This document shows, piece after piece, positions 2,740-12,860 of a stretch of 37,262 nt of DNA (position 1 is its first letter; each line of letters begins with the position of its first letter). The notes under the pieces were generated by a model that was not told where the DNA came from, made no database searches, and worked only from the letters and a program-made list of their open reading frames with translations. The DNA is from Phycisphaerae bacterium (GTDB lineage: Bacteria; Planctomycetota; Phycisphaerae; Sedimentisphaerales; Anaerobacaceae): NCBI GenBank assembly GCA_030619925.1, contig JAUXAL010000040.1, positions 1-37,262 of the forward strand, written 5' to 3'. A program made the translations under genes and the position numbers.

Positions 2740-3051
2740 TTATTTGGTTTCGGTGGATTCTACAGCGGCGGCACAAAGATTTTCTCTCATGAGTCGGCCC
2801 ATCTTAAATTTCACCGTTCGCTTTGCAGGGACCTCAACACGCTCGAGAGTTTTGGGATTCTGTGCAATTCTCGCGGCTCTCGTCTTGGTCTCGAAGACAC
2901 CAAAGTCTCGGAATTCCAAACGGTTATTCTCACACAGTTCCGCTGTTATTTCGTCAAGGAACGCCTGGATGATGCACTTGACTATTACTCTTTTTGCTTG
3001 TGTGCGTTCTGCAATCCGGTCGATAAGTTCTTTTTTTGTAATCGTTGCCAT
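2740..3051 (-). CDS. hup: HU/IHF-family DNA-binding protein
   Basis: A 103-residue histone-like protein that bends and compacts DNA in the nucleoid. It begins TITKKELIDRIAERT (helix 1 of HU) and contains RLEFRDFGVFETKTRAARIAQNPKT, the beta-arm with the family's G-F and RxxRxxxNPxT signature (here RAARIAQNPKT). PAKRTVKFKMGRLMREN is the final beta-strand/helix. Length is about 10 residues over the usual ~90 because of a C-terminal AAAVESTETK tail. Start at 3051 is supported by GAGGTGG 5-6 nt upstream. Upstream there are about 900 bp without a convincing gene. Confidence 0.95.
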   Translation of the reverse strand: MATITKKELIDRIAERTQAKRVIVKCIIQAFLDEITAELCENNRLEFRDFGVFETKTRAARIAQNPKTLERVEVPAKRTVKFKMGRLMRENLCAAAVESTETK

Positions 3052-6608: not shown

Positions 6609-7040
6609 CTATTCCGAGCCGACGTTACGGTTTCTCATTTCATATCTTTCTCCTCCAAAAGTGTTAATATTTTTAGGTCTAATCGGGCAGTTCCAAGTTT
6701 CCTTAAAAAGGCGCTCTGTAACCGCCCGAACTGGTAAAGAGATTTGGTTTAAGAAATGGTCTTTAATCCAGCTTGCTATGAAAAGATTTGATGCGCGAAT
6801 CTTTAGGCGTCCGTCAGCGAATGTGAGTGTGGCGGGGTTGTTAAACCATGTCCGATACTTTGGCGGCCCCACCTTTTCGGCAAGCGCTTCATCAGTGTTT
6901 ACCCCGTTAGAGACTTGACTGGCATTAGAATTAGAGTCTTGACTCGGATTGGAGCCAGGCGCGCTGGGGTCTCTAACGGGGTCGGGGTTTATTTCGGCCC
7001 GCGGGGCGCGGGAACACTCATCCTTGATTGTGTCCTGCAT
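6609..7040 (-). CDS. Stand-alone DnaA N-terminal (domain I) protein
   Basis: A 143-residue protein containing only the DnaA domain-I-like fold: KYRTWFNNPATLTFADG, LKIRASNLFIASWIKDHF and LNQISLPVRAVTERL (about residues 63-115) match the W/F-DG-L-I-N-F-WI-F pattern of DnaA_N. In DnaA this domain binds DnaB helicase and self-associates. No AAA+ or DNA-binding domain follows; translation stops at 6609, with no continuation downstream. The start at 7040 is chosen from GAGGAGAG about 9-10 nt upstream; the frame stays open to 7115. Residues ~18-50 are a Ser/Asn/Pro-rich segment created by an 80-bp palindromic element (see repeat). It could be a replication-linked regulator that competes for DnaA or DnaB, or just a divergent domain reuse; this is inference. 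Confidence 0.75.
   Translation of the reverse strand: MQDTIKDECSRAPRAEINPDPVRDPSAPGSNPSQDSNSNASQVSNGVNTDEALAEKVGPPKYRTWFNNPATLTFADGRLKIRASNLFIASWIKDHFLNQISLPVRAVTERLFKETWNCPIRPKNINTFGGERYEMRNRNVGSE
6902..6981 (-). repeat. 80-bp in-frame palindromic element, copy A
   Basis: Perfect 13-bp inverted ends: CCCCGTTAGAGAC (6902-6914) and GTCTCTAACGGGG (6969-6981), with a 54-bp spacer. On the minus strand it is read in frame inside the DnaA-domain-I gene as PVRD...VSNGV. The spacer holds a degenerate 24-bp duplication (TTAGAGACTTGACTGG / TTAGAGTCTTGACTCGG). Ends, spacer length and reading frame all match the copy at 10067-10146. Confidence 0.85.
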
Positions 7041-7955
7041 GGATGTTCTCTCCTCTAAAGAACACCCTCCATTCCATTGCAGTCGGGAACCCCGCAAAAC
7101 GAGGTCCCGAGCCAATCCATTAGTGGTTATTATCGGACTATTATGGGAGAAATCAAATTTTTTTTGCTGGATTTTTTTGCGACTTTACAGAAGTCAATGC
7201 TACTATTGACCTTGCGCCTCAAATTTTTTTTGTTTTCAACCGGTTTTACACATCGTAAGTTCACTTTGTGGTAGAGCGGTGGACTATATTTCCAAATTTT
7301 CTCAGCCGGCATCCCGGCGGCACTGGTTGGACTACTTCGTGTTGAACATTTACTCTATTGATGTTTGCAAAATAAATGAAACTATCTGGCTACGGCGTGC
7401 TCCGCCACGACGAGTTGTGAGAACGAGACTCGCGCTTCGTAGCTGCTTCGCTCTGCTCCGCACTGCATAGCTTCAGCAGAGCAGTGTCGCCACAGCCTTG
7501 AAGCGTCGGCGACTTCGCAGAGTAGCAAGCACACTTGTACCTGCGGTTACGCCTGCTGCCACGACTTGCGTCGTGCGACGCAGAGGCACGCAAGTGCAGG
7601 CAAAAGGATTATTTTCAACACCCGCAAACAAGTTTGTACTACTCTGCAAAGCACAAGCTGGTGGCACCGGAGTGTTGCTTTAATAACGCATAGTCAGGAC
7701 GATTCGCTATTAAATTCCGCAGCGTTTCCGCAGAAATCCTATGATTTTCCACAAGTCCCGTAATTTTCCCTCGCTATCTTTCTGTCAATATGATATATTA
7801 AATTTGGATCAGGTGTGATGAGACGGCTTTTTTTGTTTCCTGCCAAGCTTTCTTCACAAAAAAGCCGGCAGTTTTCTAATTTAAACGCCGCAAAGTTCTG
7901 GACAAACAGTCGCATTTCGCTGAGAGAGGACGGGACGTATGGTGGAGGAAGGAAA
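7041..7955. other. Gene-free region with a structured GC-rich segment
   Basis: Between the DnaA-domain-I gene and the M28 peptidase. The first part is AT-rich with T-runs (7157-7240). Positions about 7395-7680 are markedly GC-richer and full of short inverted repeats: GCTCTGCT/AGCAGAGC (7450-7457, 7475-7482), ACTTGCGT/ACGCAAGT (7564-7571, 7588-7595) and GCGTCG-TG-CGACGC (7568-7581). Open frames on both strands here overlap one another and look like translated repeat, not genes. Confidence 0.55.
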
Positions 7956-10061: not shown

Positions 10062-10066
10062 ATGAA

Positions 10067-10146
10067 CCCCGTTAGAAATTCTATAACGGGGAATAATATA
10101 ACACAAAAAGGGCAAATGATGCAAAAACGGAAAATTTCTAACGGGG
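10067..10146 (+). repeat. 80-bp in-frame palindromic element, copy B
   Basis: Perfect 13-bp inverted ends: CCCCGTTAGAAAT (10067-10079) and ATTTCTAACGGGG (10134-10146), with a 54-bp spacer. An extra internal half-copy TAACGGGG (10084-10091) can pair with the left end as an 8-bp hairpin. In the gyrA frame it reads PVRNSI...ISNGV. It contains the candidate gyrA start codons at 10116 and 10119. It has the same ends, spacer length and frame as the copy at 6902-6981. Confidence 0.85.
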
Positions 10147-12860
10147 TGAAGGAAGTCAAGAAGCCACAGGAGCGATTCGAGGATAGGCACATCCTTGATG
10201 AGCTCAAGAATTCATACCTCAACTACGCGATGAGCGTCATTGTTTCGCGTGCCCTGCCGGACGTTCGCGATGGTCTGAAACCTTCTCAAAGACGGATACT
10301 CGTTGCGATGAACGATTTGAATCTCGGCCCGCGAAGCAGGCACCGCAAGTGTGCCAAAATCGTCGGCGATACCAGCGGCAACTACCACCCTCACGGCGAC
10401 CAGGCCACCTACGGAACATTGGTGCGCCTGGGCCAGGAGTGGAACATGCGTTATCCGCTGATCGACCCTCAGGGCAACTTCGGCAGTATCGATTCCGACC
10501 CACCGGCTGCCATGCGATATACCGAGGCAAGAATGGCTGCGCCGGCTATGGAAATCCTCGAAGATATTAACCACGACACCATCGATTTTGTGCCGAACTA
10601 TGACGAGACCCGGCAGGAGCCGACAGTTTTGCCTTCAAAGTTTCCGAATCTGCTGGTCAACGGCTCTACCGGAATCGCCGTGGGAATGGCGACCAACATC
10701 CCGCCGCACAATATTGCCGAGGTCTGCGACGCCTTGCTGCTGGTCATTGAAGACCCGAATTGCGGCTTCAAGGATATTATCAAGCGTCTGCCCGGCCCGG
10801 ACTTCCCAACGGGTGGAATCATTTGCGGCAAAAAGGGCATTATGGATGCTTACACTACCGGTCGCGGCCATTTGACGGTCCGAGGCAAAGTAGATATCGA
10901 AGTAACCAAAAGAGGCAGGGAAAGAATCGTAATAACTGAAATACCATATATGGTTGTCAAGACCACGATTGTCTCTAAAATCGCAGGTTGTGTCCAAAAT
11001 GGTACAATTGGCGAAATTGCCGACATCAGAGACGAATCAGACCGTCACGGATTGCGAATTGTCGTGGACCTGAGAAGGGACACCGATACCGAAGTCGTTT
11101 TGAACAAGCTGTACCGTTACAGTCTTTTGCAGAGCACTTTTGCTATTGCTAATATCGCTCTGGTTAATAATAGGCCTGAAGCCCTCAATATCAGGGAGAT
11201 GCTCGATTGCTTCATTGACCATCGCAAAACCGTCGTCCGCAGGCGAACCGGGTTCCTGCTGAAAAGGTGCAGAAACAGGGCCCATATTCTCGAAGGCCTT
11301 ATTCTGGCGGTTAGTGACATTGATGAAATTATCGAATTGATAAAAAAGTCGCCTGATACTCCCGCCGCGAAGCTGAACCTGATGGCCAAGCCGCTGCAAT
11401 TAGTTGAGCTGGCCACACTGAAGAAAATCCTGCCTAAAGCCTTTGTTAAGGAAAAAAGCCGAGGCAAACATTTCCTCACCGGTCCGCAGGCCGATGCAAT
11501 CTTGACAATGCAGCTGCAAAGACTGACAGGTCTGGAGATGGAAAAGCTCGCCAAAGAGTACGCCGAGCTTACCGAGCAGATAGAGGGCTATGAAGCGATA
11601 TTGGCCAGTGACCGGGTCCTGCTGGATATCATTCGCGAGGACATCTACGAAATAAAGGAAAAATACGGCGATGCCAGGCGGACGAAGATCACAACCAGGG
11701 CCGAGCAGTTTGCTGTCGAAGATTTGATTGCCGAAGAGGAGGTTATTGTTACGGTAAGTCACAGCGGATACGTTAAACGAATGCCGATTGATACATACCG
11801 CAGGCAGGGTAGAGGCGGCAGAGGAATCATCGGCTCAGTTACAAAAGAAGGCGATTTTATAGAGCATCTCTTCGTCGCCTTTACACACGATTACCTGCTT
11901 ATCTTTACCAATCGCGGCAAATGTTACTGGCTGAAGGTCTATGACGTCCCGAGTATGTCGAGACAGAGCAAGGGCAGAAATATCGTCAACCTGCTGAAGC
12001 TGAGCAGCCAACAAATAGCATCAATAATCAACGTCAGTACTTTTGACGGCGAAGGCGAGCAAGACTCACAGCAGCGACAGCTCATTATGGCCACAAAAAA
12101 TGGCCTTGTGAAAAAGACGAAACTGTCCGCTTACAGCAACCCGAGAACGACCGGCGTCATCGCCATCAATCTCGACCCTAACGATGATTTGATTGGTGTT
12201 GCGCTAACCGTAGGCAGTGACCATATTGTACTGGGTACGCGAGACGGTATGACGATACGTTTTGACGAGGGCCAGGTTCGTTCGATGGGCCGTGCCTCAA
12301 GAGGTGTCAGAGGTATTAAGTTGCGCCCCGGTGACACGGTGGTCGATATGGTGATTGTTGAGAAAAAAGCCGCTCTGTTCACGGTCTGTGAAAACGGATA
12401 CGGCAAGCGGACGGGTCTTGAAAATTATCGACCGCAGAGCCGGGGTGGAGTGGGTCTGAAAAACATTAAAACAACCGCCCGAAACGGCAAAGTGGTTGCA
12501 CTCAAGGCCGTCCAGAACAAGGATGATTTGGTGATGATAACCGCCAATGGAATGATTATTCGCACCGGGCTTGACCAGATCCGCTCGATTGGCAGAAACA
12601 CACAGGGCGTGCGCTTAATCAAGCTCAAGGGCGGCGATAAACTCGTTGCCGCTGAAAAGATAACGGCCGAAGATGCAAACAACAATGCGAAGGACAAGTC
12701 CGGTAGCAATCAGAAATCGCAGCCGGCGTCAGAGGCTAAAGCTGAGCCGAAACCGAAACCTAAACCGAAGCCGCGGTCGAAATCTAAATCAAAACCTAAA
12801 GCTAAGCCAAAATCTAAACCTAAACGCCGAATAAGTAAAAAAGCAAAAAGGCGAAAGTAA
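10119..12860 (+). CDS. gyrA: DNA gyrase subunit A
   Basis: Type II topoisomerase breakage-reunion subunit. LKNSYLNYAMSVIVSRALPD opens the winged-helix domain; AAMRYTEARM carries the catalytic Tyr (~134). The C-terminal beta-pinwheel includes QGRGGRGIIG, matching the GyrA-box and favouring GyrA over ParC. In the quinolone-binding segment HPHGDQATYGTLVR the positions equal to E. coli Ser83 and Asp87 are Gln and Gly. The last ~45 residues are a Lys/Pro/Ser-rich tail (KPKPKPKPRSKSKSK type), unusual for GyrA. Start is uncertain: the frame is open to ATG 10062, but AAAAGGG sits 6 nt before ATG 10119; both lie in or beside the palindromic element. No gyrB is adjacent; holA follows 73 bp downstream. 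Confidence 0.93.
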   Translation: MQKRKISNGVKEVKKPQERFEDRHILDELKNSYLNYAMSVIVSRALPDVRDGLKPSQRRILVAMNDLNLGPRSRHRKCAKIVGDTSGNYHPHGDQATYGTLVRLGQEWNMRYPLIDPQGNFGSIDSDPPAAMRYTEARMAAPAMEILEDINHDTIDFVPNYDETRQEPTVLPSKFPNLLVNGSTGIAVGMATNIPPHNIAEVCDALLLVIEDPNCGFKDIIKRLPGPDFPTGGIICGKKGIMDAYTTGRGHLTVRGKVDIEVTKRGRERIVITEIPYMVVKTTIVSKIAGCVQNGTIGEIADIRDESDRHGLRIVVDLRRDTDTEVVLNKLYRYSLLQSTFAIANIALVNNRPEALNIREMLDCFIDHRKTVVRRRTGFLLKRCRNRAHILEGLILAVSDIDEIIELIKKSPDTPAAKLNLMAKPLQLVELATLKKILPKAFVKEKSRGKHFLTGPQADAILTMQLQRLTGLEMEKLAKEYAELTEQIEGYEAILASDRVLLDIIREDIYEIKEKYGDARRTKITTRAEQFAVEDLIAEEEVIVTVSHSGYVKRMPIDTYRRQGRGGRGIIGSVTKEGDFIEHLFVAFTHDYLLIFTNRGKCYWLKVYDVPSMSRQSKGRNIVNLLKLSSQQIASIINVSTFDGEGEQDSQQRQLIMATKNGLVKKTKLSAYSNPRTTGVIAINLDPNDDLIGVALTVGSDHIVLGTRDGMTIRFDEGQVRSMGRASRGVRGIKLRPGDTVVDMVIVEKKAALFTVCENGYGKRTGLENYRPQSRGGVGLKNIKTTARNGKVVALKAVQNKDDLVMITANGMIIRTGLDQIRSIGRNTQGVRLIKLKGGDKLVAAEKITAEDANNNAKDKSGSNQKSQPASEAKAEPKPKPKPKPRSKSKSKPKAKPKSKPKRRISKKAKRRK

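Follow-up and report, generated by a model that had tools for sequence, protein, structure and literature searches.

The window, which is the whole stretch of 37,262 nucleotides analyzed here, contains two copies of a palindromic repeat that is probably a small non-autonomous mobile element, similar to a MITE, inserted by a trans-acting protein with duplication of a 4-bp target. Copies of this repeat have a 13-bp inverted arm in common and a dispersed distribution; many are flanked by 4-bp direct repeats of the form YNNR, and copies are found within genes whose counterparts in relatives have no such interruption. An earlier note on this DNA had proposed a mobile, protein-tolerated palindromic family, and the dispersal of the copies, the bias in their reading frame and the presence of empty sites support that proposal.

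Copies in the window and in its genome

The features around the two copies are as follows.

6609..7040, minus strand: host gene with a DnaA N-terminal domain (PF11638, E = 2.5e-9), likely ATG start at 7040 after AGGAG
6898..6901, no strand: flank TTTA, against TCGG at 6982-6985; no target duplication, though both are YNNR
6902..6981, minus strand: palindromic element (the finding), 80 bp, with perfect 13-bp inverted arms at 6902-6914 and 6969-6981
10062..12860, plus strand: gyrA ORF, 932 aa (PF00521, E = 1.5e-154; PF03989, E = 6.2e-78)
10063..10066, no strand: left copy of the target duplication TGAA, overlapping the gyrA ATG (10062-10064)
10067..10146, plus strand: second 80-bp element, at the start of gyrA, with the peptide PVRNSITGNNITQKGQMMQKRKISNGV
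10147..10150, no strand: right copy of the target duplication TGAA, forming an in-frame GTG with the last G of the element

The element at 6902-6981 reads CCCCGTTAGAGAC...(54 bp)...GTCTCTAACGGGG and that at 10067-10146 reads CCCCGTTAGAAAT...(54 bp)...ATTTCTAACGGGG, each of 80 bp. Because AGGAG precedes the ATG at 7040, the former lies inside the DnaA_N gene, at approximately codons 20-47 (a longer ORF, from a TTG, reaches 7115), where it encodes the in-frame peptide PVRDPSAPGSNPSQDSNSNASQVSNGV. The peptides of the two copies follow the patterns PVRD-x18-VSNGV (6902) and PVRN-x18-ISNGV (gyrA), with 27 residues each in the same phase. We thus recovered, with their coordinates and peptides, the two 80-bp elements with a 54-bp spacer and a common frame that the earlier note had described. 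When the gyrA flanks are joined without the element, they read ...AAGATATGAAGGAAGTC..., and therefore the start codon was the insertion point; the ATG was kept, and an in-frame GTG was created behind the element. The duplication missing from the 6902 copy was either lost, or this copy is recombinant. Both copies fold mainly through their outer stem (z = -4.1 and -4.0). Elsewhere in the window, positions 7370-7600 form an intergenic region with many short imperfect inverted motifs (GCTTCG, CACGACTTGCGTCGTG and others) and no clear gene.

We scanned the Phycisphaerae genome to which the window belongs (4,018,566 bases, or 4.0 Mb, in 141 contigs). The arms of the family are CCCCGTTAGA...TCTAACGGGG, with the ends CCCC/GGGG. 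The exact right arm TCTAACGGGG occurred 47 times on the plus strand and 52 times on the minus strand, 99 in total, compared with 8 and 3 (11) for the reversed control, and the paired-arm pattern matched 20 times, compared with none for the control. The suggestion that the two copies represent a family was thus borne out, and the possibility that they were the only two was ruled out by the further copies. A chance palindrome was likewise ruled out by the arm and pair counts relative to the controls and by permutations. We analyzed 64 stretches around the arms of this genome together with the window. Copy lengths recurred, for example at 29, 35, 53, 59, 62, 65, 77 and 80 bp; the equal length of 80 bp therefore held for both window copies, but not as a trait of the family, in which it is one of several recurrent lengths. 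As a separate observation, a second palindrome, CTTGTCTGACGACAGTCAAG, is nested whole or in part inside five elements of this genome (L027, L045, L051, L053 and L058) and may represent another small repeat family.

Target duplications, empty sites and reading frame

We examined the sequences flanking 172 exact, deduplicated copies and found 4-bp direct repeats of the form YNNR around 96 of them, compared with a mean of 11.0 and a maximum of 21 in 1000 permutations; the remaining 76, including the 6902 copy, lacked an exact duplication. Among 49 non-nested copies of the window's genome with at most one mismatch per arm, an exact 4-bp repeat was present in 28, a repeat of length 2 or 5 in one each and a repeat of length 3, 6, 7 or 8 in none; among those with exact arms, 16 of 26 had the 4-bp repeat. 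For 144 exact copies from other genomes, the repeat length was 4 in 78, 2 in 11, 3 in 4 and 5 in 5. In a wider set of 205 copies, the exact duplications numbered 109 and were without exception YNNR (pyrimidine first, purine last), most commonly TTTA (24) and TAAA (15). Such 4-bp direct repeats are the mark of staggered-cut insertion. DDE-type transposases cut target strands with a stagger of this kind, and known transposition chemistry thus points to a DDE-type integrase in general: the enzyme would cut the two target strands 4 bp apart and insert the element, and repair would duplicate the 4 bp.

Copies also occur head to tail. When two such copies were less than 31 bp apart, the gap was exactly 4 bp in three of six cases, plus one in genome G214. 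Pairs with an exact 4-bp linker are located at L095:2942-3105, L158:2083-2204 and G214:C42:3969-4120. In the L158 pair, flank and linker are both TAAA, as if one copy had been inserted into the duplication made by the other, and in the L095 pair the linker CTCA is unlike either flank.

The earlier note had asked for empty sites in related genomes, and these were found. In thiC of the window's genome, a 20-aa insert (56 bp + 4 bp) stands ahead of the C-terminal cysteine motif, and exactly these residues were absent in all 15 relatives aligned, out of 38 with a match. In hypE, a 22-aa insert precedes KFMRDPTRGG; among the relatives aligned, out of 34 with a match, it was common to G023, a genome of the same GTDB family, and absent in the 14 others. 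One of these 14, L229, contains a shorter insert that is unrelated. The insert in gyrB sits in a length-variable linker, and in a PolX-type gene the element precedes the ORF's first start codon. Hosts in this genome are both of a replication type (gyrA, gyrB, the polX-like gene and the DnaA_N gene) and of other types (thiC, hypE and genes for a thymidylate-synthase-like protein, an ABC transporter ATPase, a sulfatase and prepilins).

The preference of the lengths for one frame, which the earlier note had anticipated, was confirmed: copy length was 2 mod 3 in 22 of the 26 exact copies of the window's genome and in 114 of all 172 exact copies (binomial P = 1e-18), so that the element plus 4 bp was usually a multiple of three. 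Of the three phases of the arms, only one contains a stop codon. Owing to these two properties, many copies lie in frame. In the window's genome, 24 of 24 copies had open frames, compared with 18.8 expected, but outside genes the excess was slight (15 of 20, compared with 13.2 expected). A frame-keeping, stop-free insertion would be tolerated as a short extra peptide and would survive selection.

For 185 copies with flanks of 600 bp or more, the coding status of the site was judged from the empty allele. A length of 2 mod 3 was found in 84 of 108 copies whose empty-allele ORF had at least 150 aa, compared with 24 of 42 whose ORF had fewer than 80 aa (Fisher's exact test, P = 0.015). The lean toward this length outside genes may reflect a founder effect or descent from gene-borne copies. 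The 91 copies that were in frame and open were read in the PVR phase in 58 cases and in the PLE phase in 33. In hosts with an empty-allele ORF of at least 250 aa, 17 of 73 copies had a frame-breaking length, and 29 of 73 were not read through in frame by the rule used; some of the latter were nested or at gene edges, or the wrong ORF had been chosen. Copies were under-represented in these long ORFs (73 of 185, compared with 1020 of 1500 random positions), and genes as a whole are tolerated, not sought, by the element.

Prepilin genes provided a particular kind of site. Among 222 copies with at most one mismatch per arm, 11 were located directly before an FTLIE-type prepilin N-terminal segment, compared with 11 of 3000 positions drawn at random from the loci of these copies (Fisher's exact test, P = 5e-8); a twelfth motif match, on the opposite strand of L029, was spurious and was removed, the loci had been chosen for holding elements, and the copies are not all independent, since the two in L095 are nearly identical. 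They come from the window's genome (L010, L029), its relatives (L090 and, from G023, L122), another Phycisphaerae MAG (L148), Jorgensenbacteria (L095, two copies), Omnitrophica/Omnitrophota (L132, two copies, and L193) and Riflebacteria (L158). Nine of the 11 were in the PLE...LTG phase and ended exactly at the processing site. For example, L148 reads MKKRRKNQIRKGFT[PLE...LLLTG]FTMVEL, and its joined flanks read MKKRRKNQIRKGFTMVEL. TTTA was present on both sides in 6 of 11 and on the right in 9 of 11, where it encodes Phe-Thr. As read from these sequences, the insert is followed by a second, rebuilt processing site, Gly|Phe-Thr, with the glycine supplied by the element and Phe-Thr by the duplication. 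If the peptidase uses this second site, cleavage would remove the inserted peptide together with the leader. The prepilin leader would then be the clearest haven for the element, and these sites suggest how a mobile element could remain concealed within a gene, its peptide being removed by host processing.

Fold, covariation and distribution across bacteria

We next considered the pairing of the arms. Positions 1-10 were fixed by the search pattern, and the informative positions 11, 12 and 13 paired in 166, 147 and 130 of 172 copies, compared with 86, 96 and 64 after permutation. The covariation that keeps the ends complementary, which had been noticed from the window copies, is thus real. Position 14 showed no excess of pairing, position 15 was below the permuted mean, and position 16 was slightly above it, within the permuted range. 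A few copies carry two-sided changes in the outer bases (TCCC...GGGA in L165 and L168; GTTACAAAT...ATTTGTAAC in L093).

The best-preserved copies contain two inner hairpins in the outer stem, that is, a three-way junction, which is clearest at 65 bp with the layout 13 + 1 + 17 + 3 + 17 + 1 + 13 or 13 + 1 + 17 + 1 + 20 + 13. Two perfect inner hairpins of at least 5 bp were found in 13 of 92 copies of 59-68 bp, compared with a mean of 0.3 and a maximum of 2 in 40 shuffles; with 79 of the 92 lacking them, the three-way junction is a minority form. The mean interior z-score was -2.7 at 65 bp, approximately -1 at 62, 77 and 80 bp and nil at 53, 59 and 79 bp. We aligned seven 65-mers from Terrybacteria, Nitrospirae, Phycisphaerae, Omnitrophica/Omnitrophota and Riflebacteria, picked for length and fold, which favors the result, and found 96.4% of cells paired and 14 pairs with two-sided changes, a value as high as which occurred in 0 of 500 shuffles. 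The number of pair types in this alignment was unremarkable (108 of 500 shuffles were as high). The sequences of the inner hairpins differ between copies and across phyla. These results suggest that the 65-bp junction is the active design and that most other copies are decayed or reduced forms.

Two readings of this covariation can be considered, both of which we regard as tentative. Under the first, the elements form a class of mobile DNA that spans phyla, and their transposition complex reads the three-way-junction shape instead of a long fixed end, with only the ten outer bases fixed and the rest of the sequence free if it folds; the design would be compatible with coding, and the enzyme would be a new type of transposase or a host protein. 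As part of this reading, the length of 65 + 4 = 69, the two stop-free phases, the LTG-reading ends and the preferred TTTA target that encodes Phe-Thr would together enable the element to live inside genes, above all in prepilin leaders. Under the second, the covariation is a by-product in which template switching or the repair of hairpin mismatches perfects the palindromes of elements that are still mobile, with no selection for shape. The hypE element common to two genomes is consistent with this second reading: 8 of its 62 bases differ between them (1 of 26 in the arms and 7 of 36 in the interior, where pairs break), compared with 98 of 600 flanking bases, and it has kept its frame and changed at approximately the same pace as its gene. 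The plain hairpins of 29-38 bp that occur among copies of the window's genome also fit it. A by-product, however, leaves unexplained the recurrence in several phyla of two inner hairpins with fixed spacing and different sequences. The mobilizing protein, which would act in trans, might recognize the folded shape and the ten fixed outer bases, or a folded intermediate might be mended against itself.

An exact-pair scan of a collection of 84,980 species genomes yielded at least 116 stretches; for genomes other than that of the window, the pattern allowed 53-83 bp only, and the copies are not independent. The matches listed included Patescibacteria groups, Omnitrophota, Phycisphaerae and other Planctomycetota, Cloacimonadota, Nitrospirae, Nitrospinae, Deltaproteobacteria, Bacteroidetes, Riflebacteria, Elusimicrobia, KSB1 and Stahlbacteria/WOR-3, among others; nearly all of these genomes are MAGs, and some contigs may be misbinned. 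None of the 116 stretches listed had a Rickettsiales title, and the window's own genome belongs to Phycisphaerae. The elements of G023, from the same GTDB family, agree in sequence and in contig position with those of a Phycisphaerae MAG (L105, L122). An Omnitrophica genome, UBA1562 (G043), had 85 + 81 arms in 1.4 Mb, with many 53-bp copies among the arms listed. The exact pair of 53-83 bp was also present in six IMG/VR viral contigs. A comparison with one plasmid and one phage gave no match, which says little, since the interiors vary. The interiors were mostly unrelated, with 46 matching pairs among 201; some of these matches cross phyla, which suggests transfer.

Within the nearer lineages, the exact pair was found in 12 of 41 genomes of a set of relatives and in 10 of 392 drawn across the phylum, the window's genome being counted in both. 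This patchy occurrence argues against the idea that the host benefits from the elements, for instance through regulatory hairpins or useful peptide inserts. One HypE copy is common to two genera, as such a benefit might predict, but the peptides are unrelated and so are the hosts, and we consider this idea highly improbable.

Search for a mobilizing enzyme and relation to known systems

We searched for an autonomous copy with a transposase between such arms, and none was found in approximately 1.2 Mb of partly overlapping loci. The arm lists of four genomes likewise contained no autonomous parent with the same ends (for G042 and G043, among the arms listed). Ten arm pairs 131-5000 bp apart had equal 4-bp flanks, and in all ten at least one arm belonged to a short element. 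Thirteen ORFs in or across seven of these intervals (three below 220 bp were left out) gave Pfam matches to ribosomal proteins, ABC transporter parts, RelA/SpoT, ParB and prepilin-like proteins; no transposase was named, and one ORF had no match. Around 20 unpaired exact arms, the 11 nearby ORFs scanned were ordinary genes, with no transposase. The counts of the four enzyme families searched, Y1_Tnp, DDE_Tnp_1, DDE_Tnp_1_4 and RVT_1, do not track the number of elements: DDE_Tnp_1 was missing in three of five element-rich genomes, and DDE_Tnp_1_4 was above the cut-off in none of eight.

The earlier note had suggested searching for a RAYT-like transposase. In such a system, a Y1 (HUH) transposase cuts and pastes a folded single strand, and the palindromes would be REP-like. 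An enzyme acting on single strands fits both the hairpin shape and the covariation of the arms, and Y1 proteins occur in the window's genome (four weak matches) and in G041, G042 and G043 (two each); three of those scanned resembled the model of the REP-associated tyrosine transposase, below its cut-off, and one was of the IS200 type. In Kaiserbacteria, one unpaired arm is located just beyond a RAYT-like gene (L285). REPs within ORFs have also been published for other bacteria (excerpt of PMC3733652). However, the 16 Y1 loci inspected (L263-L272 and L281-L286) contained an arm with at most one mismatch in only three cases (L265, L283 and L285), and in none was the gene bracketed by a left and a right arm. 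G019 had 12 pairs and no Y1 match (this genome is 74% complete), whereas G020 had nine Y1 matches and no pair. Furthermore, the target duplication is unlike insertion of the IS200/IS605 type, whose enzymes are not known to insert with duplication of a variable target sequence. Neither GTAG nor CGTC was seen at the element ends, which are CCCC/GGGG with variable YNNR flanks. A RAYT-like mobilizer is thus unsupported, and we judge a system of this type to be unlikely.

As a separate observation on the Kaiserbacteria locus, an ORF for a group-II-like reverse transcriptase, the unpaired arm and the RAYT-like gene are neighbors (L285:1-717 and 1247-1953). A reverse transcriptase gene near an arm is what would be expected if the element were RNA-borne, that is, a bacterial SINE in which a structured RNA is reverse-transcribed and inserted at a nick with a 4-bp stagger, and compensatory changes across the three-way junction are likewise expected of a conserved RNA fold. 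Against this, RVT_1 had no match in the element-rich genomes G000 (that of the window), G003, G019 and G023 and one weak match in G010, and nothing but tRNA exceeded the Rfam gathering score in 11 sources, so that no known structured RNA family was matched. An RNA-borne origin therefore seems very improbable.

Insertion of a MITE-like element in trans, which we favor, agrees with the 13-bp terminal inverted repeats, the target duplication (96 of 172) and the short length without a transposase gene of its own. Classical MITEs (Correia/NEMIS, RUP, ERIC) are similarly short and non-autonomous, with terminal inverted repeats and target duplication; in contrast to them, no parent IS was found here in the loci and arm lists examined, arm positions 11-13 are variable yet complementary, and the length is compatible with coding. 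REP/BIME repeats with RAYT, and CGTC REPs, are also short hairpins, some of which lie in ORFs, including those of replication and repair genes (excerpt of PMC3733652), whereas the present elements have no GTAG/CGTC end tag, show target duplication and in some copies contain two inner hairpins in one outer stem. PARCELs are palindromic, protein-coding and thought to have spread by transfer, but they are tandem 75-nt repeats that form a protein domain (excerpt of PMC2996958), and the elements described here are mostly single inserts in unrelated proteins.

Rickettsia palindromic elements (RPEs) have been described from Rickettsiales, and coding palindromes are known mainly from these intracellular bacteria. 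Like RPEs and Wolbachia palindromic elements, the present family is palindromic and dispersed, between genes and inside them, and in frame in conserved genes. The likeness to RPEs put forward in the earlier note therefore holds for behavior, a dispersed palindrome being found here in frame in unrelated protein genes. According to an excerpt of the source, RPEs are 105-146 bp long, with the target duplication marked '?' (PMC2229807). The copies in the window's genome, by comparison, range from 29 bp up, and the family has a clear 4-bp YNNR duplication, includes some three-way junctions and occurs in many phyla. The relation was judged by behavior and description, not by RPE sequences, and we do not file the family as RPE, because the hosts differ. 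No RPE domain was named in Pfam scans of 20 host ORFs of the window's genome, the presence of such a domain in the library being uncertain. A 2024 review of MITEs describes RPEs as unusually frequent in-frame insertions and considers that other prokaryotes may have a comparable mechanism (PMC10969869). Among the matches listed from open PMC text, a scope that excludes subscription papers and preprints, the family was without a description, and the arm sequences used as a query of that text returned only papers with unrelated titles.

The same coding-palindrome behavior is thus now seen in environmental lineages of many phyla, together with target duplication and empty sites, and it raises the question of what enzyme mobilizes an element that is defined for the most part by how it folds. 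The in-frame peptide inserts in conserved enzymes constitute a set for testing how well proteins tolerate insertions. Many sequences in protein databases probably contain PVR...SNGV stretches that are inserts and not domains of the host protein. As a minor observation, an ORF that is 1130 codons long and has no Pfam match contains two similar 47-bp copies, each with TTTA on both sides (L167:1666-1712 and 2971-3017).
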